Part shown: piece by piece, positions 10,482 through 32,700 of the stretch | Numbering within the stretch: the first letter of the stretch is position 1 | Layout: the number at the start of each line of letters is the position of its first letter | NCBI GenBank assembly: GCA_037447655.1 | Contig: JBBHKE010000303.1 | Span: forward strand, 391,465 to 455,464 | Direction: 5' to 3' | Source: Zygnema cylindricum | Taxonomy: Eukaryota > Streptophyta > Zygnematophyceae > Zygnematales > Zygnemataceae | Length of the DNA: 64,000 nt | Program-made: the position numbers and the translations under genes | The notes under the pieces: model-generated | What the model was told of the DNA's origin: nothing | What the model saw: only the letters and a program-made list of their open reading frames with translations | Database searches by the model: none

Positions 10482-11475
10482 TGGTTCAAAGTGGGTTCAC
10501 TTTTGTAAAAGAAAAATACCTGTCGCTTTGTCTCGACTTCGTACGAATTGTTACAACCGCTAACAACACTAGGCTACTTTTATGCACCGCATACGAAACC
10601 GATACAAGCCCGCATCGCTTAGCTTTGCGAGGAGTATTTATCCTTTTTGAAAAAGATAAGTTTGAGTATATGTTTTCCTTTATCCAAAAAGTACATTCAT
10701 ATGTTGGTTACTTAAAATGCATTGATTACCTGGTCACACACGAAGATTTGATTAGCGTGATTTTGGCGAGATTGTCGCCCAGCTTTGAGTCATTTGGTTG
10801 TATAGTGTCCTTACCTCATTTAACCAATCAGCTTGTTTACGAGGAGAGTAGACAGAAACTAAAAAAACAGGTGACATCATCTGTCGCCACAACGCTAACT
10901 ACCTTTGTTGCAAAAATATATTTTACAGGTGTTGTAGGATCTTCCAATTTTTGCAAATATTGCAAAGAGAAATATCACCTCATTGCCGCGTGTTCAGTCC
11001 TCGCTGTCCGTACAGTCCTCCTCCTCTTTGGTACAACATGATGTCACCCCAATTCCAATTTGTGCCACCTGTACCTCCAGCGCATCTTCAATCAAATGCA
11101 ACAAATCAAGATGCGTTACCTATAAACCACACCAATTCCGTACCTATTCCCATCCCTCCAATGGATTATAGGTATGCTTTTAATATATCAAGTAATAATT
11201 ATGAATGGTTGATAGATTTTGGTGCTTTGCATCATATGTCATGTACAAAATCTATCATGGAAAATCTTGTGATGTTTTTTGTCCTTTTGCCCATTTTACT
11301 TGGAAATGATTATGTCCAGACATCAAATATGGTTGGAGAGGTGGCCATAAATCTGAATAGCTCCAAACCTCTCATCTCGGAGAACGTTTATTACATTCCT
11401 CAACTCAAAGAAAATCTCTTCTCAGTGGGAACGGCTCTACGAAATGGCAATTTCGGAGTCATTTTGGAAAACTGT
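10482..11475 (+). pseudogene. copia remnant D, first half: gag and protease
   Basis: The plus strand encodes a degraded copia gag (CIDYLVTHEDLISVILARLS, then a KKQ region and a CKYCKEKYHLIAAC zinc-knuckle remnant). After a frame change it encodes a Pro-rich linker and the protease NYEWLIDFGALHHMSCTKS with the end YIPQLKENLFSVGTALRNGN. The protease active site reads DFGA where DSGA is normal. Coding stops abruptly at the left edge of the gypsy-like insertion near 11475; the same polyprotein resumes at 22221. Confidence 0.8.
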
Positions 11476-12950
11476 CATGCCGCATCTCGTCGGCTATTTT
11501 AGTTGTTTATATTTAGGTGTTAGGACATGCAGCCACTACACTAATTTGTATTTAGGTGTTATTTGGGTTTCGCAAGACCGTACGACGTGTACCGTATGAC
11601 CTACATTTTTCGTAATTTCCGGGATGACGATTTGGACCGTATCCGCGGGCCTTCCGTACGACGTATATTTTCCCCGATTTCCGTCGACGGTGGATTTGAT
11701 TATTTCGCGTCGACCGTACGACTTACGTTGACCGGAATTCTCGCGGCCACAAATTGGACCGTACTTGCGGTCCTGCCGTACCTGTTTTAATTTCCCGGAT
11801 TTTCCGCCGACGACTCATATTTGAATTCACGTCGGTGCAAATAATCTTGCCATACCACATCTATCGCCCGCGATTTCCGCCGACGCCTTCCTTGTTGATT
11901 TCACGTAAACCGTACGACTCACCTTTTTCGGAATTCCCGCGACTACAAATTGGATCGTACCTTCGGTCCTACCGTACCTACTTTCATTTCCCGAAATCCT
12001 GGCCGACGACAATTTGGAATCATTTCGCGCAAGGGAGCATCTCGACCGTCGACGCAAAGTATACGATTTTCGTAATGACTCATCTGGACCGTTGACGCGT
12101 GTGACAGACAAACTGTCAGTTCTGACGAAGTGACGCGATTGGACATTCAAAAGTCGTGAACCATTTGGAGGTTCACGCATTCATATGTAGATAGGAAGGG
12201 TTTTAATCCGTAGGTTATAGATTTTGTAACGTAGGGCATAGGATTTCGGCCTCCTATTAGCTGAATCCAAACTGGACGCAAATGTTTTCATAGCACGCTG
12301 TGCTCTGATTGGCCTGTTTTCGCTAGGCGTAGTTTTCTGTTACTTAGTTCATTTCGGAACATTTGCTGCACACAATTTTCAAGTGCAGGAATTATTTATT
12401 TATTTATTTTTCAGTATTGAGGATTTTTTTGCAGCCATCTTTTTATTTGTAAAATTGTCCGGACAGCTTAGAGGCGATTTTCTGCCTTTGCGTGAAGCGT
12501 CTAGTTTTCCATTACATTATCAATATCTCGTAAAGCCTTACATATTAATCTATACGGCTTCGGCCAAGACCTACACGGTTTCCCTTCACTTCTCTCGTCC
12601 TTTTGAGTGGATTTCGACCGCGATCTCACAACACAAACTTCTTTCCCCGGTTGTGGCTGAATTTTAATTAGAGTGGAAGTTGCATGTTGGGATTATTGAT
12701 TTGTTGTTTTATTTCTTGAGTTTGTGTATTTATTTCTATTTGGCTTTTGCGCATCTTTTGAGTTTGGTTATCTCAAACCTCATAAGTGTCGGGCATATTG
12801 TCATTTTCAGTTTTTATTTATCTTTCTCGGTTGTTTATGTTTTGATTCCTTTTATTTAAGTATAAATTCAGATTATTCTCAATAAAGATAACTCCTGCAA
12901 GGAATATAAATAGACCGTGGGGCCTAGTGGTCATCCATCGGCTTAGTATT
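11476..12950 (+). repeat. left LTR of the gypsy-like element, lacking its first ~197 bp
   Basis: Aligns with 20646-22028 from CATGCCGCATCTCGTCGGCT to GGCTTAGTATT. Its 5' part (about 11560-12070) is dense in CGTACG, CGTCGACC and GGACCGTAC words arranged as diverged subrepeats. After TATT at 12950 the sequence CTTGCACTTGAAAATTGTG follows, with no TGG-type primer-binding site, so first-strand priming is not the usual tRNA-Met type or the site has mutated. Confidence 0.85.
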
Positions 12951-13877
12951 CTTGCACTTGAAAATTGTGTATTTTCTTTTCTCTCCTATTTGTTTTTATT
13001 TCAATCTCGGTTTTCTTTTTAATTAAAGAAAAAAAAAACAAAAATATTTAAAAAAAATATCAAAGATATATATTTATAGATACATTTCTACAAATATCTA
13101 TAACTAGCTTTACATTTATAATTACCATTTGCTTGTTAGTTAACGTTTTATCTTATTGGCCAATTTTCGGCCAACGATATACTACACTAACTTATATATT
13201 TGGTTTTTATTTTCCCCATTTTCTTTGTTATATATCTTGAGCATCGTTTGCTCATATTGAGACATACTTCACGGTGGAGTGAAGTTAGTGGAGCGGATCC
13301 GTTCTTGGGAGCTCTGCAAAACTTCGGTTGTAGCGAATAACCGCAGTTCACCCTTGGCAATCACTATATTACTAAGAGTGTTATGTATGTATCACGATGC
13401 CTTGCGGGTACAAGCGCGTGTTAAGGTAGTCGGTTGATCGTATAGAGGGATCGTGTTTGGACTAGATTAGTGTTAATCCACTTGTATTGAGCATTGCATT
13501 TGTTTAGCTTTCCTTGCTTGCTATCTGGCCCTGAGTGGCCTTGGCTGAGTTTGCTTTGCCCGGAGTGGGATTTCTTCTATAGATATTGCTGTTGGAGGCA
13601 TTCGTTACCACGTTGTTTTGATTGTGCCGTTTTAGATCTGCACTAGGGAGTGCTTGGATAGTAAGTTATTTGCCTTTATAGATCAGGTCCTTCGGCCTTG
13701 TCCCCTTGTTTGCAGGGTAGAAGGTTTTGGTAATACGGCTTCTTGATAGATCAGGCCATCGAGGCCCTGTTAGAGATTGATTGGTTGATTGGACAAAAGA
13801 ATGGTGTGGCCTGGCATTTGAAGCATATCGGATAGATCGGTTTTGTTATCTGGTCATCATTTGGTGTTATTATTTTT
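12951..13877 (+). other. untranslated leader of the gypsy-like element
   Basis: Lies between the left LTR and gag. It is AT-rich at first, including an A-rich stretch near 13020-13060, then more GC-balanced. No open frame of note and no recognisable primer-binding site were found. Confidence 0.6.
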
Positions 13878-15503
13878 ATGCCCACCGATTGGGATAATCT
13901 TGATTATCCTGTCGGAACTACTCGATCGTCGGCCTCGTTTAGGCCCACGGAATCCGGACCATCAGATTTATCTAGTCTTTTGGACCATCCTTCCCTTAAT
14001 ATCTCGGTTCAAATTTCCCCTTCGGTTCGATCCACTCTCACCTCAGTATCTTCCTTATCATCAGTCTCTTCCACATTTTTCGAAAATGAATCTGACCACG
14101 ATTCCCTTGACGGGTCGGATTCCAATTCATTATCTTTTTGGTTTTCGCAAATTACCAATCCAGTTTTATCCCCAAGCATTCCATTATTGGAAATGGCTCC
14201 CACATCCGAGGGAGGGGGGCGCCTTCATTTCTGTTTTTCAGGAATGAAGGACACCATGACTTTATCGCATTTTCGAATGCTATTCGATACCGAAATGCGT
14301 GATCTTGCATTCCGCTACCAAGATCGGTTCAACCTACGCCTCGCTTTCTCTCTTTAAGGCCGTTACCTTCGCGGTTCAGCCCTTACTCTTTATTCTCGCA
14401 AGTATAATTCCGTACTTGCGATGACAGATTTTTCTCCAGCTTTCGCTGGGAGTCTTGCTATTATAGGACAACCAGAAATTCCATACCAACCGGCTATCTC
14501 GGAAGTCTTGGATCTCAACGGCGATGTTATTACAGCAGCAGTTGCGGAAATACCGCAACAGTTTGCTATAGCCGCACGTGTTGGAATCCCAGCAGGACCA
14601 GCAATGACGATCCCTATACTAGATCCGCTCTCTGTCATGTTTGAAATGTTGCAAGCGGAATACCGTATGCAAAACCCTGACCAATGTCGGGAGTTAATGA
14701 ACTTCGAACGGAAGTTAAGAGAGACCGCCCCTGCCATACGTGCTCGCATAGAAGCTCTTCGTGAAGCATTGCCAAACTTAATGTCGGATGCTAAAGCTGT
14801 CCAAAAATTTGTAGGACAGTTTCCGAGTCAGTCTAAGAAATTTATTCAGAGTCACTTGACTCAAACGTACGGCTTGAAGTTCACTTTCGACCAAGCCGCC
14901 CAGCATGCCGTGGAATACGAAATGCGAAATTGTTGGTGGGAAGCCCATGACTGTCCTAAAGCGGCCCCGAAAGAACCGATTGTTCCACCATGGAACAATC
15001 CTCGTCCTAACAACCGGCCCCCTAAAGTCCCGGCCATGGGAACCCCACTTGTTGCTCCCAGAAACCGATTATGTTTTCGATGCGGGAGGACGGGGTATAA
15101 TGCCCGAATGTGTCCAGACAAAATAGTTACCTGTACACATTGCAAACAAACTGGACACTACGTCCAACGTTGTCATATAAAGAACCCGAATTTTCCTATC
15201 AGAACCAAATTAAAAATGGTGGCATTCCCGCTCGATCCCCAAAATCGGTTCAACCGGTTAAAGAACCGGAGAAAGACACCACTCCACCTAAGGTATCTCG
15301 AAGAGAGAGAGAGAGCGTTTAGAAATGCAACAGCAAATGGAGGCTATGATGAAGGAACAATTCGCAGCCTTCATGACTCAAATGAAACCACAATTTACTG
15401 GCATGACTCGCATGGTTGTACACATGCCCACGTTGGCAGGTCGAATCTTACGAGATTCCACCATCCAACAACGAGAGGTTACGTTCGACAAAGGTTCAAC
15501 TGA
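13878..15503 (+). pseudogene. gag of the gypsy-like element (two zinc knuckles)
   Basis: One reading frame from 13878 is interrupted by a TAA at 14355-14357 and resumes to 15503. The N-terminal part is Ser-rich. The middle includes the capsid-like PTLAKxF-type region seen as SDAKAVQKFVGQFPSQSKKF. Two zinc knuckles follow: CFRCGRTGYNARMC at 15072-15113 (Tyr in place of His) and CTHCKQTGHYVQRC at 15132-15173 (canonical CX2CX4HX4C). After the knuckles the natural-looking Pro/Lys-rich reading moves to another frame near 15200 and then to the pol frame around a GA repeat at 15301-15316. Gag would package the element RNA. Confidence 0.8.
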
Positions 15504-16515
15504 TCACAGCCGTGACGGTAAAACTCCTAACACACGAATTCCTTTGTCATTCACTAAAGAGCTTTCTCCTCCCTTGCCCGAAACTGCTTGAGCCATCGCA
15601 GCTGAAGCTCTCAACATAGTGGATCGACCTATACACGAGAAACACCGCGTAAAAGAACGCTTGTGCATTCTATCCAGTATGATTTCTGACTCACCAAAAA
15701 TCTCCCCTATCTCCTTTACCTCCGACAGCTCAGCTGCAGCTGCCGCGTTACAAGCACTTCAGCTGCATAGAAATCTTGCTGCTATTCAGCCTATTTCCAT
15801 AGAGGAGCGAAAGTCCCTCGATCCTCACATCAGTTTTTTGGATAACACGAAGGGTGCATTGTTGATCAATGGTATAGCCCCTTCCCTGCCTCTCATGGAT
15901 ACAGGTGCAAAGCCGGTGATATTGGGCTCTAGCTTTGCACTGAAGCTTGGTCTAACTCCGAATAAGCTTCAGTCCACTTCTTCCCGTTTGTTAACCTCCG
16001 TAGGTAAAACCGAGCCAGTCCTAGGAATCACTAAGGAATCGCTTGTTTTCAGGTTCCAGAACGGAACGGCCACAGACTTTGCTGAGATCTCGGTTCACGC
16101 TCTGGTCACTAAATGTAATGACTATGAATGCCTAGTGGGACAGGACGTTATATTCCGTGTTGGGGGTGGAGTTGATATGCATGATCAGACATTTTCTTAT
16201 AGGCCCACTAACTTTTTGGAACGCAAAATCTGCATTCCGCTAATTTCCGCTAGGAAGCCCATGCCTACTATGGCGAATTCGGCCACATCCATACCTACAT
16301 TTTCAGGGAATTCGGTGGGGGCCGAAATATTTCATTTATTGTCAGCAGAAGAAATTTTGCCCAATAGTTCTTACTTACCAAAAATTTTCAGTGACCCAGG
16401 TTTTCGTATAGATACGAGGGAATTTGACCGAATCTATAACCAAACCTTGTCAATTCCACTTTCTACGCTCTCTCCCACAATCCTAGTCCCTACAGACTCT
16501 TCTAGGTTTCTTCCC
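15325..16515 (+). pseudogene. aspartic protease region of pol
   Basis: The pol frame is recognisable from MQQQMEAMMKEQFAAFM at 15325, with a TGA at 15589-15591, and runs on to 16854. The protease core is LLINGIAPSLPLMDTGAKPV, with the active-site triad D-T-G in LMDTGA at about 15892-15909. A flap and C-terminal segment (ECLVGQDVIFRV) follow. This is the pepsin-like domain that would cleave the Gag-Pol polyprotein. The reading continues without a break into the methyltransferase motif I, so the two were one polyprotein. Confidence 0.8.
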
Positions 16516-16518
16516 ATT

Positions 16519-17545
16519 AATTGGAATCCGGTCGAATTGAACCTTTATCCAAATGGATTGGTGGTTTTGGACCTTTTCGCTGGAATAGGGACTTCTCTCC
16601 TTGCATGTTTGCGGAATGGATTATTAATCCGATTTTATTATTCGGTTGAGATTGATCCGTTAGCACAGAAAGCACAATTACATCATTGTAATCTGTTGCA
16701 TTCCCAATACCCGCATTTGTTACCTAAATCTGCATACGAGCATATGCATACTGCCCTCCCACAAGACATTCAGATTGTGGGCAACCATCACTTACTAGAG
16801 ATTGGTCGAATCGATCTAGTTTTTGGCGGATGGGAGTGCCAAGGAATGTCTTGAGCCGGGAAAGGTCTTGGATTAGCCAATCCCCGCACCAAATTATTTT
16901 TGAGTTGGTTCGTATCCTGCATTTTCTACAAACTTTAGATCATTCTATGGGGTATATCTTGGAAAATGTCGTAGCCTATAATGATCCAAGACCTACAGTC
17001 TTGGCTGATTATCAACGGATTGAACGATTAATTTGTCCGCCTCTTATTATTGACGCTGTTCGCCATGGTTCACTAGCACACCGGGTTCGCTCCAAATGGA
17101 CGAACCTGATCGATATTGGTATACTCCGTGAGGCCAACTTGTTAGTTCGTCCTCCTCTTACAGACGTTCAGGCTGCCCTTCTTCCTTTTCATAAGGTGCA
17201 GCCTTGCATTCAAAATGATTGTCCCCCTAATTTAAGTGTCAATGTCCTGGGTCAACCGCTCAAGGTGCTTCCTACCTTAGTTTCTTACCCACATTCCCAT
17301 GCATTCTCTAATGACGGTCCTGGCATGCTCCAAAACATTCATACCAGTGAGCTTGAAGAGCCTACCTCTACAGAACGAGAACACCTCATCTATTTCATTG
17401 TTGGCACTACGGACTCTACTGGTCTTACAGAACGCCAAAAATGCACTTTATTAGGTCGTGACATGGACCCTCAGTCTTTGTCTTTTGTTTTAGGTCTTGG
17501 GTTTGCAGTTGGTCGCCACTCTCAGCACATTCGTCTCAACCAGCT
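16519..17545 (+). pseudogene. DNMT3/DRM-type C5 cytosine DNA methyltransferase domain within pol
   Basis: Motif I reads VVLDLFAGIGTSLLACLRNG at 16561-16620 (AdoMet binding), followed by YSVEIDPLAQKAQ. Motif IV is RIDLVFGGWECQGMS with the catalytic Cys codon at 16837-16839. Motif VI is YILENVVAYND at about 16960-16990, motif VIII HGSLAHRVRSKWTNL near 17070-17110, and motifs IX/X TERQKCTLLGRDMDPQSLS near 17430-17490. The LFFELVRILHF-like block, the IIDAVRHGSLAHR order and the RQKxxLLGR end resemble DNMT3/DRM enzymes rather than DNMT1, CMT or Dnmt2. It would methylate C5 of cytosine in DNA. A TGA at 16852-16854 lies four codons after the catalytic Cys, and a one-base shift near 16900 moves the rest to another frame, so it is inactive as read. 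Position: between protease and reverse transcriptase. Confidence 0.88.
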
Positions 17546-18130
17546 GGGGGGGGGGAATGCATCAAGAAAATCTTTCCGTCCCACTCTCCAAGGACCACAT
17601 TTCAATTTTTCCTCTTTCCTTCTCCAATTCCACCAGTCCCGAAGATCTCTATCTACGATTTCCTTCACCCTAGCCATATGTCCTGGTCTATCCCCGCATA
17701 TACGGCTGTCTTGTCTACAAGTCCCATGCATATTCCGCCCACTCCTCATTGGAGTGTTGCTTTCCCAACACGCAGTTGGAATCATTCGGTTAATTGCCTT
17801 AAACAGACACCGGTAGCTTACGAGTTAGGTCAAACGCTTATCGCACATGAGCATTTGGCCTTTGCACAAGCCATGGAAGCTATGACAACCGAAAATCCCA
17901 ATGTTCCTAAATGGAAATTCGGCACCAATCTAACCAAAGTCGAACAAGAGTTACTGAATGACGTAGTTTTACAAAATGTCGACGCCTTTGCCATTTCTAT
18001 GAACGATTTGGGTCGTCACACCGCTTATAAGATGTCGATAGATCTCGAAGATGATCGCCTGATATTTAAACCGAAACATCGTTTGTCAGAAACCGAATGG
18101 GTATTGACTGAATTGAAAAAGGTTGGATAA
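17546..18130 (+). pseudogene. reverse transcriptase N-terminal part
   Basis: After a run of ten G (17546-17555) the open frame shifts again and reads through KISIYDFLHPSHMSWSIPAY to WKFGTNLTKVEQELLNDVVL, NVDAFAISMNDLGRHTAYKM and KPKHRLSETEWVLTELKKVG. That is the start of a Ty3/gypsy reverse transcriptase, up to the segment usually written SPxExxxLxxxLxELLxxGxI. A TAA at 18128-18130 follows. The family's next 130 or so residues, holding the palm and the YxDD active site, are not present. Confidence 0.75.
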
Positions 18131-18840
18131 AAGTGTCATCCCGCAAAATGCACCTTTGGATCCAAAGGAGTGCCTTACCTTGGCCATTTTATCTCGGCTG
18201 AGGGGATCACTCCTCTCGAAGCAAAGGTAGAGGGAATCAGTAAATTGCCGGCTCCCACAGACCTCACAAGTCTGCGAGCGTTCCTCGGGCTTGCTAATTA
18301 TTATCGCAGGTTCGTCCTTAATTTCAGGACAATCTCATCTCCTTTAAACGACCTTCTCAAGAAGGAAGTGGCGTTTATATGGGGTCCCGATCAGATTTCC
18401 GCATTTCTAAAATTAAAAACCGCCTTATCGAGTGCTCCAATTATCCGTCCTCCCAATCACAAACTTCCTTTTTGTCTCCAAACACATTTTGGAAAACCCG
18501 AAATCGCTGCCATTTGACACAAAGAGAGTTGAGCGGAGAGGAATACCTAGTTGCTTACACGAGTAGAAGCAATAACCGGGCTGAATCAAATTAAAGTAGC
18601 TACGAAGGAGAGTGTCTAGCCGCGATTTGGGGAGTCGTTCACTTCCTCCACTATTTGTACGGAAAACCTTTCACACTCCTAACTGACCATCAGCCACTCC
18701 ATTGGCTGATGACTAATGATAAGCTTTCCGGGAAACTAGCCCAATGGGCTTTAATCTTACAAGAATATGACGTTGAAATCATTCATCGACCCGGTCTGCT
18801 TAGTCTAAATGTGGACGGGATTTCCCAAAATCCTTTGCCT
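18131..18840 (+). pseudogene. reverse transcriptase thumb and RNase H
   Basis: In the same frame as the preceding part, the sequence resumes directly at the post-catalytic landmark: CTFGSKGVPYLGHFISAEGI, LRAFLGLANYYRRFVLNF, LKTALSSAPIIRPPNHKLPF. RNase H follows in shifted frames: VAYTSRSNNRAESN, EGECLAAIWGVVHFLHYLYG and KPFTLLTDHQPLHWLMTNDK, then LILQEYDVEIIHRPG. The first RNase H Asp (usually TDAS) reads QTHFGK, so it is lost. The abrupt join at 18127/18131 shows a deletion of the polymerase core. Confidence 0.82.
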
Positions 18841-19099: not shown

Positions 19100-20205
19100 C
19101 AGATGGAAGCCATAGGCACGTTCCACGGCCTATCGAGCGTCTTTCTCTCATTGAGAAGAATCACACTGAGCTTGGTCACTACGGTACCAAGCGAACGTTA
19201 AGTCTAGTTCAGGCACGTTATTGATGGTCAAAAATGCAAGCTGATGTCGCTGTTATTCTACACAGGTGTGCCACCTGTGAGCGTCTTTGAACTTCTTTCT
19301 CTAATCGGCAGACTACGCTCCAACCTCTACCCAGTAGGGGTTTATTCTATCGATGGTCGGTTGATCTAGCCGGACCTTTTCCCATATCATGTAGGGGGAA
19401 ACAATACATCATGATTATGATCAAAAATTTCAATAAGTGGGTAGAAGTCGTAGCCCTGCCTCACAAGACAACTAAGTTAACCACCGAAGCTTTTAAAGAA
19501 CATGTCCTTATGAGATACGGTGCTTCATCCGAGGTCATAACAGATCAGGGTACAGAATTTCGGAGAGAATTTCAAAAGATGCTTGATGAGGCTCTCATCG
19601 ATCATCGTCGTACTAGCCGGGATCACCCCCAGGCCGATGGCCTTGGCTGAACGGGCAGTCCAGACATTTAAGCGTGCCTTGCGTAAGCATTACTTAGAAA
19701 AACACATTTCGGTTTGGGACGAGTCCCTCGGCTACATTACCATGGGATATCGCATGTCAGTTCAGGCTAGTCTGGCTAATTTTAGCCCGTACTATGTTTT
19801 ATTTGGGCGACAACCGTTGCTCGGTCGCAATATTCAGAAAGCTGCGAGCTTTCCACTTCCACTGATGTTTGACACTATATTTTTGGAAGAACTCACTCGT
19901 CGTGCTTTGCTTTTTGCCCGTGAAATGCCCATGGCTTTTGATAACCTACAGATTTCCCAGCATCGGGACACACTTCGGTTTGCCACCACTCGAAGCGGCA
20001 GTTACAGGCCGCAACTGAGCCCTATCGAGTGGGAGATTATGTTTATCTTCACAAGCAATCTTTTGACACTTTGGACACGGATGTTTCTGCATATATCCTA
20101 CGTATTATCGAGGTGGATCGGAACGGAATGTTGGGATTACAAGGAGCAGACACACAGACTTTTCGAGAGCACTCCAAGAACTGTGCTCCATGTTATCTAC
20201 CAGAT
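19100..20205 (+). pseudogene. Ty3/gypsy integrase
   Basis: The zinc-binding domain is seen as KNHTELGHYGTKRTLSLVQA, then VILHRCATCERL (H-H-C-C). The catalytic core shows WSVDLAGPFP near 19355, EVITDQGTEFRREF near 19530 and the third acidic region SRDHPQADGLG with LAERAVQTFKRAL after a frame change near 19645. The C-terminal domain reads GDYVYLHKQSFDTLDTDVSA and NGMLGLQGADTQTFREHSKN at 20029-20200, a GPY/F-like module. Stops at about 19223 and 19289 interrupt the zinc domain. Integrase joins the element DNA to the chromosome. Confidence 0.85.
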
Positions 20206-20400
20206 TTGTCGCAGGATATGGATCCTATGCGGATGTCGATTACGGAGGCGACAGCACGTACCTATTGTCATCGATCAGACAAGGAAACTACCATGTTACT
20301 CTGTGATCATTGCAATCAGGGGTTTCACATGGAGTGTTTGGTGCCACCATTGTTGGCGGTTCTGGATGGTCACTAGTTTTGCCACAGATGTCGCGAGCTT
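20206..20400 (+). pseudogene. PHD-finger module after the integrase C-terminus
   Basis: The frame of the integrase C-terminal domain continues into YCHRSDKETTMLLCDHCNQG, FHMECLVPPLLAVLDGH, then FCHRC at 20266-20391. Spacing matches the C4-H-C3 PHD fold: Cys, a second ligand that reads Ser here, LLCDxC, Gly, H-M-E-C, L-x-PP, then a GxW position that is now a TAG stop (20374-20376), and the final CxxC. PHD fingers commonly bind histone H3 tails, so the module could direct integration to marked chromatin. That role is inference. The expected trailing tryptophan is lost by a TGG-to-TAG change. Confidence 0.75.
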
Positions 20401-20435: not shown

Positions 20436-20448
20436 AGCTAGGGGGGGG
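20436..20448 (+). other. polypurine tract before the right LTR
   Basis: GAGCTAGGGGGGGG immediately precedes AATAAACCG, which is repeated at 22029. Plus-strand DNA synthesis in Ty3/gypsy elements starts from such a tract next to the 3' LTR, which supports LTR start at 20449. Confidence 0.65.
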
Positions 20449-22028
20449 AATAAACCGTTCTAACCATAACCAGCTAAGTCGTTGACCTTTCTTTTTCTTC
20501 CACCTTGCCTGTTGTTGTATTTATCCATTGTTTTTTTTATGTTTTATTTCATTTACGATATCTCCCTATCATTTGAGTTTAAGTTGAGCACAGCTGATGA
20601 TATTGCATGCATCCTCATGTTATTTGACACATGCACGACAGCAGCCATGTCGCATCTCGTCGGCTATTTTAGTTGTTTATATTTAGGTGTTAGGACGGGC
20701 GGCCTCCACACTAATTTATATTTGGGTGCTATTTACGTTTTGCATGACAGTACATACCCACATTTCGCGTTCGCGTCAACCGTACAATTTTTACTTCGCC
20801 GTACGCGTCGATCGTACGTATTCGTTTTTGGCCGTAATATGCGCCAACGACAACTTGTATCGTACTTAATTATATTTTCCGGAATTTCCGCCGACGATAC
20901 ATTTCCGAATTTACGTCGGTACAAATAAACTTACGGTACCATAGATATCTTCCACGATTTCCGCCGACGATGGATTCGATTATTTTACGTCGACCGTACG
21001 ACTTACACTACCCGGAATTCCCGCAACTACAAATTGGACCGTACCTTCGGTCCTACCATACCTAATTTTATTTCCCGAAATCCCAGCCGACGATAATTTT
21101 TAATCGTTTCGCGTGAAGTAGCATCTCGGCCGTCGACGCTGATTATGTAATTTTCGTAACTTCCTATATGGACCGTCGACACAAATTACTGACAAATCGG
21201 CTGTTAGTTCTGACAAAGCGACGTCATTGGACTATTTTAAGTCGTGAACCATTTGGAGGTTCATGCACTCACATGTAGATAGGAAGGATTTTAATCCGTA
21301 GGTTATAGATTCTGTAACGTAGGGCATAGGATTTCGGCCTCCTATTGGTTAAATCCAAACTAGACGCAAATACTTACATAGCACGCTGTACTCTGATTAG
21401 CCTGTTTTCGCTAGGCGTAGTATTTATTACTTAGTTCATTTATGATAATTTCCTACACACAATTTTCAAGTGCAGGCATTATTTGTTTTCAGTATTGAGG
21501 ATTTTTTGCAGCCATCTTTTTGTTTGTAAAATTGTCCGAACAGCTTAGAGTCAATTTTTTGCCTTTGCGTGAAGCGTCTAGTTTTCTATTACATTATCGA
21601 TATCTTGTAAAGCCTTACATATTAATCTATACGGCTAGGGCAAAGACCTACACGGTTTCCCTTCACTTTCCTCGTCTTTTTGAGTGGATTTTGACCGCGA
21701 TCTCACAACACAAACTTCTTTTCACAGCTGTGGCTGAACTTTAATTAGTGTAGAAGTTGCATGTTGGGATTATCGTTTTGTTGTTTTTATTTCTTGTGAT
21801 TGTGTATTTATTTCTATTTGGCTTTTGCGCATCTTTTGAGTTTGGTTATCTTAAACCTCATAAGTGTCGGGCATATTGTCATTTTCAGTATTTATTTATC
21901 TTTCTCGGTTGTTTATGTTTGGATTTATTTTATTTAAGTGTAAATTCAGATTATTCTCGATAAAGATAACTCCTGCAAGGAATATAAATAGACCGTGGGG
22001 CCTAGTGGTCATCCATTGGCTTAGTATT
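20449..22028 (+). repeat. right LTR of the gypsy-like element (1580 bp)
   Basis: Bounded by AATAAACCG on the left and GGCTTAGTATT on the right. The terminal AATA/TATT is an inverted repeat instead of the usual TG/CA. From 20646 on it matches the left LTR. Its U3-like part (20750-21200) again holds CGTACG and CGTCGACC words and repeats of GGACCGTACCTTCGGTCC-type sequence. Confidence 0.75.
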
Positions 22029-22220
22029 AATAAACCGACCTAACCATAACCAACTAAGTCGTTGACCTTTCTTTTTCTTCCACCTTGCCTGTTGTTGTAT
22101 TTATCCATTGTTGCTTTTATGTTTTATTTCATTTACGATATCTCGCTATCATTTGAGTTTAAGTTGAGCACAGCTGATGATATTGCATGCATCCTCATGT
22201 TATTTGACACATGCACGACA
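22029..22220 (+). repeat. first 192 bp of a second, abutting LTR
   Basis: Repeats 20449-20640 almost base for base, from AATAAACCG to CATGCACGACA, directly after the end of the right LTR with no spacer. It then joins copia remnant D at 22221. The LTR-LTR junction looks like that of a two-LTR circle. Confidence 0.85.
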
Positions 22221-22590
22221 AGAAGTTTACCGCAATATCACAAATTGGAGGGGTAATCGATGGGACGCACATTTTTCGTGGAAAGTGCATTAAATGAGGT
22301 AATCTTTATGTTTCAAAATCTTTTAGAGATTTAGCAAATTCAAATGTAGCAAATTCCTCTCCTTCCTCTTGCTTTCACAAATGGCATTTAAGATATGGTT
22401 ATCCAAATAGACAAAACTTAGCTTCCCTTAGTAAAGGCCTTTTTTCAGCCTTAGATTCCTTTGTTGCAACAAATCTTGATTTTTCCATGGATGTATTATT
22501 GGGAAAATGCCTCATTTACCTTTTCCAAAAAGCTCTTCGAAATCAAAATCTCCTCTTGATTTAATTTATAGTGATTTATGTGCGCCCATA
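22221..22590 (+). pseudogene. copia remnant D, second half: GAG-pre-integrase
   Basis: Resumes the polyprotein cut at 11475. Recognisable are GNLYVSKSFRDLANSN, CFHKWHLRYGYPNRQNLASL and, with frame changes, GKMPHLPFPKSSSKSKSPLD and LIYSDLCAP. This is the GAG-pre-integrase domain and the start of the integrase of a copia element. It ends where the LTR at 22590-23080 begins. Confidence 0.75.
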
Positions 22591-29152: not shown

Positions 29153-29696
29153 TCACTTCTTCACTGGAGAAGTAATTTGGATATTGCGATATTGATAGAG
29201 AAAAGGCGCATCTTTTCCGTCCCAAACTCCCGACCATCCTCCAAAATTAACCGAACTTGCATTCCAGACGGAACCGTACAAGAATTGGGGTTTTACAGGA
29301 TACTCTGTAACCATACTTTTAAAAACTTCGCGGTGTAAAACGCCGTCTACCAGCCACCTGCAAGAAGAAAGAAAATTCCTCTCTTATTCCATGAAAAAAA
29401 AGCCTTCTTTTGTTTAATGGAACGTCCAAGAAAGAATTGAAAGCTCGAATGGAAACTCCAGCCATTTATGATGACAAGTATGCTCAATATTTTTAAAATT
29501 TAACGACAATCAAGATTTCGGCCATGGATGAAAGGAGTGAGCGAGAGAGTGACAGAGGGAGGGAGGGAGAAAAAGAGAGGGAGAGAGAGAGTGAGAAAGA
29601 GAGAGAGAGAGAGAGAACAGGGTGGGTGAGGGTATGAGGGAGAGCGAAAGGGGGGTAAGAAGAGGGGGTAGAGCGGGGGGGGAGAAAGAGAGAAAG

Positions 29697-29772
<76 letters not shown>

Positions 29773-32700
29773 CACCTTATGCTTACGGGAGACCACCGAA
29801 TTGTATAGGTGTGAAAATCCTCGGAACAGTCGAATCCGAGTTCGAACCAAACTTCATGTCCCCCAGTTCCGTTCACAAAGTAATTGCTTTGTACCACACT
29901 TTTGTTGTATCCTAACCACTCAAAGTCGATTTCATCCTGATCTATTGTCCCTTCCCGAGATGACAGCTGGCAAATAAAAGCATTTCCGAAAGGATATATT
30001 AAAAGTCAGCGGGAGAATAAGTCAAATCACGTGCTGCCTTAATAAAGGTAGTTTTTGAGTCAATAGAAATGTAAGAGGAAGAAATCGGAAGTGCTGAAGC
30101 AAGAAAACGTAAGATTTGAAGGAGACTTCCGTGTTTTGTTTTTTGTTTGGGTTTTCATTTGTGTTTTTTTTTTTCTTACATAGAATGAAGGCAAGAGTCC
30201 ACTCGTATTTCCATCAGCGCATTTAAACTTTGTTGTGAATTCCCCCGAGAAATAAGATAAACCCGAATGAAACCGACCTCCTGCAAAGAAATATGTACAT
30301 ATGCACATATATTTTTATTGCTTATTTTTCATTTTACATTCATGTCAGGCGACAACTTCCTTGTCGTTATAATGGTAACTCCAAAAACCTCCTACCTAAA
30401 ACATTCACATGATATATGATGCAAGTTTCATTTTTTCTGTCTTTCACCCTTTTCTTTGTTTCTCGGGGGATGGGGAAGAGGGAGAGAAGAGCGTTTTCAC
30501 GCCCACAATGTGTCTTTTATGTACATGTAGTAGTACTTTAATTTCTGATCTCTAGTATGCAGCTGCATTTTGTCAAATGTAATCATCTCCCCCTCTCCCT
30601 CTCCCTCTCTCTCTCCCCCTTCTCCCTCTGTTTCCATGTGTTCGACGGAACAACCAGGTACTCAATGAACATACAATAGATACAGTCAACACTGTTCTAC
30701 ACTCTTCCTCTCTCTCCCTGTCCACCTCGCCCCTTGACCTCTCCCCTCGCCCCTCACGCCCTCTAAAAAACGAAATGCCCACGTCTAATCTCCCCACTAC
30801 CACTCACCGCAATTAGTGTTGTCAAATGTAATATTTGCCGAACTGCTCGACCTTTCGAAGCTCATGTGGTCCCCGCAATAGTCGGTCGCCATAGTCGGCA
30901 TCGGTGCATTCACGGCTTTCCGGTTAAGTTTTGGCATTTTAAGGATGGGACTTCGTATGGTTACATTTTTGAAAGAAGCGGTAACGGAATCCGTTTCCGT
31001 ACCCAAATCCACAGCTGTTTGCCACGTGGGCGTTGTGTACGTTTCTAAAGCTTCGATTCCAAAATATAAATGCATTTTATTTCCCGAGGGAACGGGGGCG
31101 TACCACGTGGGTTTGTCGTACATGTGTAGGACATTGTTGTCGCTCATCCATCTAGTTCCAATCAAATTGACAATTGGGAATGGTGGTTTAGTAGCTATCG
31201 GGATCATTTATCAAATTAATACATTTGGGGAGGTTGTTTTTGTAGCTATTGGGGTTATGAATCAAATCGACACAGTTGAGGATGTCATTTTGGCATATAT
31301 GCGGCCATAGAAGATATTCTTCTCTACTTCACTTTTCTTTTCGCAAAAACTATTTAACCATATGAAGACACAAGCCTATTTTATTTCGAAAATGGTTTTT
31401 CTGGAAAATCTCCAAATTCCTTCTTTTTCTTTTTCCTTTACTTTTGCATTGGTGAATGCATGTTCTTTTACTATAGTTTCTAGGAACCTAAGAATCTTCA
31501 ATGTTTTTAAACCATCCTTTGATTGCATAAAATGAACTAAATAATAATATAGCTTTTTGTCCAGCAATTGTAACACAATTAAGTCCACGCCACTGACCAC
31601 TAATAGTGTGGTTTCTGCTAACAATTTTCAACCTTTATCACAGTTGACCCACACTAATTTTAATAAAATCCTCCCAGATGAAGTACACTCCAGCCGAACA
31701 CATTTTTTTTACTTTAAACAAATTCAGTTGGTTCATCTAGAAAAGCAATTATTAAAAGTCTGTAAACAGTGTGCATGACAACAATATCGGTTTCTTGTCA
31801 AAAGACACTTATTGAAGAGGCCCACGTTTCACCTTATTGCATGACTTGATTAGGAGTCCAAGAAGATCGGAATCAAAAACCGTGTTAAAAAATCTAAAAA
31901 CCCCGTTAAAAAAAAACCCGGAAATCCTAGAAAGGCCAAATGTTCACTATCAACATAATATTAATCGGAATCCAGACATTAGGCATAAAAACCCGCCATC
32001 TCCCCGCAAAAAAAAAACCAGAAAAAATGCTAGAGTTAAACACTCACATGATCATTTTGGGCGTCCAATAAATCGAATATAAATGGTAATCTTCTGCACA
32101 ATCATATCCAAGATCGACCGCAGTTCTGTCGCTCGTAACACCGTTATCGATAGTTTGAATCATCCCGAGGTTGCGATGTTTCCCTCTCATTTCAAAAACA
32201 ATGGACGAGCGATTTGAGTCGGTAAAATTGGTCGCCAACTGAAACATCAAAAAGAAAAAGGAGAGAAATAAAGACAAATTAGAAATACAGTATAAAGCTG
32301 GATGAGATAAACGGGTCAGTTTTGCGTAGCCGAATGGTATTACATTTAAATGGAGAGGTCAGAAAATGACAAAATAAAACTTGACAGTGTGTTGATACCG
32401 AACATATTCTAATAAACTAATTTCAATTGTGAAATCGACCATACACAGGCTCTATTTTGGAGAAACAGGAAAAAGATTGTGGACTCCCTAAATGTTGTAG
32501 TGGAGCACAGATTACGTTCTTTTCCCGTAACATAAAAAGTGAATAAAATCCAAAACCAGATTATAAAAAATACTCACGAAAAACGAGGTCAAGACTCCCG
32601 ATGTATTTCCGGAGGGACAACGAATATATGCAGAAAATACGCCCGTCAAAAAACTGGGTTCGGAATAAACTCGAGTACCTAAAAAAGTGACATTTCCCAA

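Follow-up and report, generated by a model that had tools for sequence, protein, structure and literature searches.

A DNMT3-type methyltransferase domain in the pol of Ty3/gypsy retrotransposons with a PHD finger in Zygnema cylindricum and related green algal elements

Introduction

Retrotransposons that carry a DNA methyltransferase (DNMT) have precedents. The closest published one is the Klebsormidium nitens element KnitGypsy-Dnmt3. According to the main text of de Mendoza et al. 2018 (PMC5890265), it combines a Dnmt3 domain in the Gypsy Pol with DIRS-like repeats, is under purifying selection, and belongs to a host with fewer copies than Symbiodinium. The occurrence of a DNMT in a Gypsy retrotransposon is thus already known. 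The preliminary description of the locus analysed here had named retroelement capture in a charophyte and in dinoflagellates as the only precedents, which agrees with that paper. In passages of a 2025 study, retrotransposon DNMT3s are cited only as earlier reports from streptophytes and dinoflagellates (PMC12344493).

Here, we describe a window of 64,000 nucleotides (the whole stretch of DNA analysed) from Zygnema cylindricum, contig JBBHKE010000303.1, together with its relatives in the same genome and in databases. De novo methyltransferases silence transposons, and an element that carries and conserves a DNMT of its own inverts this expectation.

Results

The methyltransferase domain of the window

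The domain lies at positions 16519-17545 of the forward strand, and its motifs can be read directly: motif I (VLDLFAGIG, 16564-16590), motif IV (GGWECQGMS, 16825-16851), motif VI (LENV, 16959-16970), motif VIII (AHRVR, 17076-17090) and motif IX/X (RQKCTLLGR, 17433-17459). The order is the correct and unrearranged one, as had been noticed beforehand. Motif IV is usually PCQ, with a proline before the catalytic cysteine; in the window a glutamate takes the place of the proline. The domain had also been described as continuous with the protease. This holds for motifs I to IV, which share one frame with the protease (ORF 15592-16854), but not beyond, where a TGA stop (16852-16854) directly follows motif IV and the frame changes near 16897.

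When the two open frames of the domain were searched separately, there was no Pfam match to DNA_methylase. Joined end to end, with an X at the stop and another at the frame change, they matched PF00145 with an E-value of 1.3e-9, which passes the cut-off, and among solved structures they matched DNMT3C, DNMT3A and DNMT3B best (2e-8 to 5e-6), with DRM2 at 3.5e-4. A profile of nine relatives placed DNMT3A on top (3e-25), followed by 4onj and 4onq (9e-14 and 6e-12), which are labelled merely as DNA methyltransferases and which we take to be DRM, then by HhaI (4e-11), by chains labelled DRM2 (7e-11, over the first part alone) and by DNMT2 (2.5e-5). The closest solved relatives of the DNMT of this family are DNMT3 enzymes, ahead of DRM, DNMT1, DNMT2 and bacterial enzymes. 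In DRM enzymes, the motif order is rearranged. Motif order and profile rank together rule out a DRM identity, and of the earlier wording "DNMT3/DRM" only the first half can be retained. The window domain is a DNMT3-type C5-cytosine methyltransferase.

Architecture of the element

All parts of the element are on the forward strand. It begins with the left terminal repeat B1 (11473-12950), which starts with TGTCATGC and matches repeat B2 at about 20646-22028. The gag region (13836-15503) consists of two open pieces and has two CCHC knuckles, read directly at about 15072-15173; no Pfam model for gag matched it. The aspartic protease (15865-16038) has a PF13650 match below the cut-off (E 0.0021) and a directly readable DTGA motif (15898-15909). 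After the DNMT come the remains of the reverse transcriptase (RT, 17900-18517), which, by comparison with the copies L009 and L010, have lost 486 bp at about 18094-18101. A short repeat is found at this junction, with six of eight bases alike in L009, and the YIDD motif of L029 and L033 has disappeared with the deleted segment. RNase H follows at 18598-18768 (PF17917, E 5.5e-17; the Pfam match to the RT/RNase H connection in the window pol is below the cut-off), and then the integrase at 19135-19629, with a zinc-binding part (PF17921, E 0.0018, below the cut-off) and a DDE core (PF00665, E 7.4e-12). A PHD finger (20263-20352; PF00628, E 5.7e-8) ends the pol; alignment with relatives reveals a stop and an altered first ligand in the window copy.

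The order protease, RT, RNase H, integrase, also found in L033 and L029, is that of Ty3/gypsy. The location of the DNMT between protease and RT, proposed in the preliminary description, is correct for the family, and correct for the window as far as its RT survives the 486-bp loss. The window copy itself is dead, with a stop and a frame change in the DNMT, the deletion in the RT, and a damaged PHD finger.

Downstream of pol, a polypurine-tract-like G run (20441-20448) directly precedes the split repeat A1 (20449-20640), with a counterpart at the same position in the copies C1344 and C232. A1 is followed by B2 (20646-22028) and by A2 (22029-22220), which ends with GCACGACA. Split repeats with a G run, at 20441-22220 in the window, occur likewise in L042 (1888-3305) and L040 (2211-3641). 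The insertion interrupts a Copia element, with one side at 10852-11472 (PF22936, Pol_BBD, E 2.1e-13) and the other, probably of the same element, at 22221-22564 (PF13976, GAG-pre-integrase, E 2.1e-6, just below the cut-off); some of the joins that were tried are readable in frame across the insertion site. Elsewhere in the window, on the reverse strand at 29493-30005, there is a GH16 exon (Pfam E 1.1e-18), by reading of the xyloglucan endotransglucosylase kind, beside a long run of Leu-Ser repeats.

Copies in the Z. cylindricum genome

The assembly that was searched comprises 352.8 Mb in 2689 contigs (the K. nitens genome is about 0.1 Gb). Only the best candidates were scored, and the copy numbers are therefore lower bounds. 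The DNMT query has at least 118 matches, including the window's own (117 scored of 1812 candidates), and the integrase query at least 150, also including the window (150 scored of 2928 candidates, 77-100% identity). Excluding the half that belongs to the window (99%), the DNMT matches are 62-88% identical to the query, and in view of so many matches in the same genome the domain is not a chance similarity. The DNMT is free of stops in 24 of the 118 matches, the window's half included.

The copy C1344 has a single open frame of 2395 amino acids that runs from gag through protease, DNMT, RT, RNase H and integrase to the PHD finger. Its repeats B1 and B2 are identical over 931/931 bp, and A1 and A2 over 242/242 with one gap column; from reading the sequence, this copy is nested in another Gypsy element. 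The identical repeats and open frame of C1344, and the nearly identical DNMT of C1407, show that the family moved recently. Other copies are open from gag or protease into RT. The DNMT thus lies inside a Ty3/gypsy pol, as the preliminary description had it, and the whole-genome search suggested there has found an intact copy with the same gene order. The DNMT frame is intact in seven of 32 loci (L004, L005 and L009-L038), and all seven keep motifs I, IV, VIII and IX/X (motif VI was checked in the sequences of three copies); many of the decayed loci in this set are without the tryptophan, cysteine or glutamine of motif IV.

Copies that lack the domain had been named beforehand as an observation that would argue against its belonging to the element. 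For 22 of the 50 best integrase matches (not counting that of the window itself), a DNMT of the same orientation is listed 1.5-6 kb upstream (61 listed DNMT places were used for the pairing, and the remaining listed ones were compared by eye). Nineteen stretches from the other 28 were examined (a twentieth would fall outside its contig), of which eight contain a DNMT in the same orientation, one a DNMT in the opposite orientation, one RT and linker at a shifted spacing, and nine none of these. Four of the nine were read. The element begins within the linker in one of them and in or at RNase H in two, and in the fourth nothing of it precedes the integrase. All four lack the whole 5' part, so that no DNMT-less element with protease and RT is among them. 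The domain might have been a separate gene fragment inserted later into the window copy alone, which would be in keeping with the broken frame of the window DNMT. This is contradicted by other copies, which have the domain in the same slot and in the same frame as pol, and the elements that were read include no DNMT-less one with protease and RT; we attach next to no probability to this scenario. Stray insertion of a DNMT gene into a single copy is ruled out by the open copies of the same order.

The top three matches to PF00145 in the genome fall outside the window family, and the next ones, L004 and L005, inside. The DNMTs of L001, L002, L003, L006 and L008 are 38-46% identical to the DNMT of the window or to database relatives. 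In L006 (1093-3342), protease, a DNMT with PCQ in motif IV, and RT are found in this order. These loci represent a second, deeply separate DNMT-Gypsy lineage in the same genome. L007 contains an exon (1498-1797) that resembles plant chromomethylase (GGPPCQGASGHNRFR) and looks like a host DNMT. The RuBisCO small subunit has its strongest matches among chains of land-plant type (down to 4e-62) and weaker ones among chains of Chlamydomonas type (about 1e-43); together with L007, this points to a streptophyte host.

Split repeats and mode of insertion

Three copies, the window, C232 and C1344, were read to both ends. Two identical direct LTRs at both ends were not found in any of them; instead, all three have the repeat order B1 - ORF - A1 B2 A2, the split direct repeats of a DIRS-like arrangement. 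In the 10 window ORFs scanned, there was no Pfam match to a tyrosine recombinase, and rve was found (E 7.4e-12). With a DDE integrase present, the element is not a DIRS element. The outer ends TGTCATGC...GCACGACA form a short inverted TG...CA pair. Both ends could be located in six copies; the 4-bp target duplication is exact in three of these (TTGG in C1344, CCAT in C232, CCCT in C1915), three of four bases agree in C449, and two of four in C2526 and in the window; C1407 and C783, where one end only was located, are outside this tally. On the basis of the integrase type, the TG...CA ends, the 4-bp duplications and the split repeats, a DDE integrase seems to insert a split-repeat element.

Where A1 meets B2, the sequences of the two outer ends lie opposite each other, a few bases apart. 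One may hypothesize that a linear cDNA of the form A-B...A-B would be closed to a circle, which the integrase would then open at the A/B junction. In C232, B2 ends before the point where B1 ends, which is what an imprecise joint of such a circle might leave. Dating from B1 and B2 was set aside, because in the window these repeats are only 85.5% identical (1177/1376 ungapped positions), compared to 96.9% for A1 and A2 (186/192).

Relatives in databases

A protein search limited to short proteins gave one relative, of bacterial type. Scoring of longer candidates for the DNMT gave 13 relatives, 12 of them of the retroelement kind. In 5/12 (P0002, P0003, P0004, P0010 and P0013) the DNMT is beside the protease or before the RT. 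In the other 7/12 it precedes the integrase, and three of these reach back far enough to establish the order RT - RNase H - DNMT - integrase. Four proteins (P0006, P0008, P0009 and P0012) extend to a PHD finger.

With the integrase-PHD part of P0009 as the query, a search found 397 proteins, of which 120 were listed, including the query. The named PHD-Gypsy relatives are from chlorophytes, namely Haematococcus, Chlamydomonas reinhardtii, Volvox, Pleodorina, Tetrabaena and, going by its label, Chromochloris. In seven relatives, the integrase-PHD part is 41-51% identical to that of L042 from the window family. A model built from 13 retroelement DNMT segments detected a DNMT domain in 97/119 of the listed relatives, a biased sample that comprises the best-ranked of the 397 by likeness to a DNMT-bearing element. 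The precomputed Pfam annotation has PF00145 in 21/119, and in a Pfam scan of P0012, P0026, P0050, P0082 and P0127 this model was matched by P0026 only, below the cut-off. Many retroelement DNMTs escape the general Pfam model for DNA methylases, and surveys based on PF00145 undercount them. Both RNase H and integrase could be anchored in 84 of the listed relatives; 76 have a DNMT between the anchors (median spacer 645.5 amino acids), and eight have a short spacer and no DNMT. P0033, P0035, P0039, P0062, P0090 and P0128 make up a PHD-Gypsy subclade without a DNMT in the RNase H-integrase slot.

Phylogenetic position and origin

In the integrase tree, most rows without DNMT nest among rows with DNMT (88/95 and 93/87, branches that are not starred), which suggests loss of the domain, and P0089, which has a DNMT, has a near-twin without one in P0073. 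The absence of the DNMT from the nested PHD-Gypsy subclade is likely due to loss. The partner of L042 (window family) is P0121, which is cut upstream, and the two stand apart from the rest (100/97).

The DNMT tree was built only from rows of retroelement, phage and bacterial type, and three of the phage rows are at most half filled. Retroelement DNMTs are on one side of a 100/100 branch, opposite the seven phage and bacterial rows; P0014, which is not from a retroelement, is found on the side of the retroelement DNMTs, at the end of a very long branch. The window DNMT groups with L009 (99/99), then with L029 and L033 (100/100), and then with P0002 (96/99). DNMTs of the RNase H-integrase kind form one clade (100/98). 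A bacterial or phage origin was also considered and set aside. The 79 loci on viral contigs are far weaker matches (24-55% identity, partial), and the six of them in the tree fall opposite the retroelement DNMTs; a bacterial or phage DNMT may still be the deep source of the latter.

Instead of a single capture followed by a move, the two slots could reflect two independent captures, one between protease and RT (window family) and the other, chlorophyte-like, between RNase H and integrase. The existence of two slots and the single clade of the RNase H-integrase DNMTs speak for two events. On the other hand, all retroelement DNMTs (with P0014) are on the same side of the 100/100 branch in this tree of retroelement, phage and bacterial-type rows, and both kinds share the integrase-PHD tail. 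We regard two captures as possible, and put the suggestion forward tentatively.

Intact and inactivated domains

Among 87 near full-length database domains, the catalytic cysteine is kept in 81/87 and the EN of motif VI also in 81/87. The residue before the cysteine is glutamate in 54/87, proline in 18/87, and another residue in 15/87. The six domains without the cysteine are P0127 (C. reinhardtii, relic at 1220-1539), P0046 (Pleodorina starrii), P0024 (Volvox reticuliferus), P0055, P0091 and P0125; they persist in open frames. All Chlamydomonas, Volvox and Pleodorina domains that are long enough to judge (P0127, P0024 and P0046) have lost the cysteine. Shorter DNMT remnants are found in P0017 (Tetrabaena), P0113 (Pleodorina) and P0075.

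We compared the DNMT slot with the integrase in ten relatives of our choice, five of the six without and five of the 81 with the cysteine. In the former, pairwise identities are 31-62% for the DNMT slot compared to 60-83% for the integrase (10 pairs); in the latter, they are 51-72% and 49-73% (10 pairs). This contrast is the best evidence that catalysis is what selection keeps.

The contrast also bears on the possibility that the domain no longer methylates DNA and has been retained to bind nucleic acids, to methylate RNA or to help the polyprotein fold. Such a role would account for the glutamate in most domains, for the persistence of cysteine-less domains in open frames, and for the inactivity of the K. 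nitens domain on yeast DNA reported in the main text of PMC5890265, a result that the authors called inconclusive. It does not agree well with the retention of the cysteine and of the EN of motif VI in nearly all near full-length domains, or with the fast evolution of the slot where the cysteine has been lost, and we consider it improbable.

Selection and CpG content

Comparison of three subfamilies gave a pS of 0.74-0.81 (saturated) and a pN of 0.11-0.16 for the DNMT. Between subfamilies, pN was 0.05-0.07 for the RT, 0.18-0.25 for the DNMT-RT linker, and 0.18 for the protease stretch (one pair). Within subfamilies, dN/dS of the DNMT was 0.17-0.38 where dS was measurable; the pair L033-L034 was left out, having too few differing sites. 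The DNMT is under purifying selection and is kept as a protein, under less constraint than the RT but more than the DNMT-RT linker.

The observed/expected ratio of CpG is 0.81 in the seven intact DNMT frames and 0.75 in 23 broken ones, and 0.70 in the window copy compared to 0.91 in the whole window. CpG decay was considered as a proof of self-methylation and set aside, as the depletion is too weak and neither proves nor excludes it.

Discussion

In the interpretation that we find the most convincing, and consider probable, the window holds a decayed Ty3/gypsy copy with a DNMT3 as a standing part of its pol and a PHD finger after the integrase, the former acting on the element's own cDNA and the latter in targeting. 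Methylation of the element's own cDNA is inferred as the likeliest role of the DNMT; the preliminary description had suggested, also as an inference, that the element could once have methylated its own DNA or that of its competitors. The enzyme would travel in the particle together with RT and integrase, and would methylate the cDNA at or after reverse transcription. The PHD finger could hold the integrase to histone H3 tails and thus guide integration, so that the methylated copy would enter chromatin already marked. Such marking might weaken a host defence directed against naked or unedited DNA, or might lower the cost of a new unsilenced insertion.

This explanation draws on the Pfam and PDB identity of the domain, the numbers of DNMT and integrase matches (at least 118 and at least 150), the open copy C1344, the signs of selection, and the retention of motifs in 7/7 intact frames. 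It is also in agreement with the methylation of CG in yeast by SymbioDIRS-Dnmt3 domains, as described in the main text of PMC5890265. The arguments against it are the result with the K. nitens domain in yeast, the glutamate instead of the usual proline of PCQ in the window family, the weak CpG depletion, the 8/84 anchored relatives without DNMT, and the lower constraint on the DNMT than on the RT. The DNMT might alternatively act in trans, by marking host chromatin at the insertion site or by silencing competitors, rather than on the cDNA of the element. The enzyme could be brought to nucleosomes by the PHD finger of its polyprotein, and the copy number is high; yet in the polyprotein the DNMT adjoins RT or integrase, where the cDNA is made. 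An action in trans appears unlikely, and we retain methylation of the element's own cDNA as the role to be preferred.

Beyond the window family, the survey makes it reasonably probable that a DNMT3 is an ancient and near-standard part of a PHD-Gypsy clade of the green lineage, placed in either of two slots, mostly under selection for catalysis, and dead in volvocine hosts although the element itself survived there. With the same reservation, its breadth would have been overlooked because PF00145 misses most of the domains (21/119 precomputed versus 97/119 here). If this is true, the clade offers a natural experiment for asking how a transposon benefits from DNA methylation of its own making. 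Working-looking and dead DNMTs occur side by side, and the gain from an own DNMT can be tested by comparison, either between hosts with live and with dead versions, or between DNMT-bearing and DNMT-less members of the same clade.

Our literature searches, which covered mostly titles and few subscription papers, found no title on DNMT-bearing PHD-Gypsy elements or on chlorophyte cases. The terms 'PHD', 'chlorophyte', 'Chlamydomonas' and 'Volvox' are absent from the main text of PMC5890265. Within the reach of these searches, five features are new: the PHD finger, a second DNMT-Gypsy lineage, the breadth of occurrence, the dead relics, and the slot between RNase H and integrase.

Judged by its published description, KnitGypsy-Dnmt3 resembles the window family in that it is an LTR Gypsy element whose Pol ORF includes a DNMT of the Dnmt3 type, unrearranged and free of introns; DIRS-like repeats, purifying selection and conserved key residues are shared as well. 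By the same description, the window family is set apart by the PHD finger, by more than 100 copies, by two DNMT lineages in one genome, and by 4-bp target duplications. The Gypsy case published in PMC5890265 concerns one alga, and to this an abundant and recently mobile family in a second streptophyte genome can now be added. SymbioDIRS-Dnmt3 and SymbioLINE-Dnmt of Symbiodinium are similar in that the DNMT is borne by a retrotransposon, in the split repeats of the DIRS element, and in the hundreds of DNMTs, again going by the main text of PMC5890265. They differ in the means of insertion, which is a tyrosine recombinase in SymbioDIRS and an endonuclease in SymbioLINE, instead of the DDE integrase and TG...CA ends found here. 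The PHD-Gypsy elements of green algae (Haematococcus, Chlamydomonas, Volvox and Pleodorina) have a related integrase-PHD part and a DNMT of the same group, which is located between RNase H and integrase, whereas the window family carries it between protease and RT.
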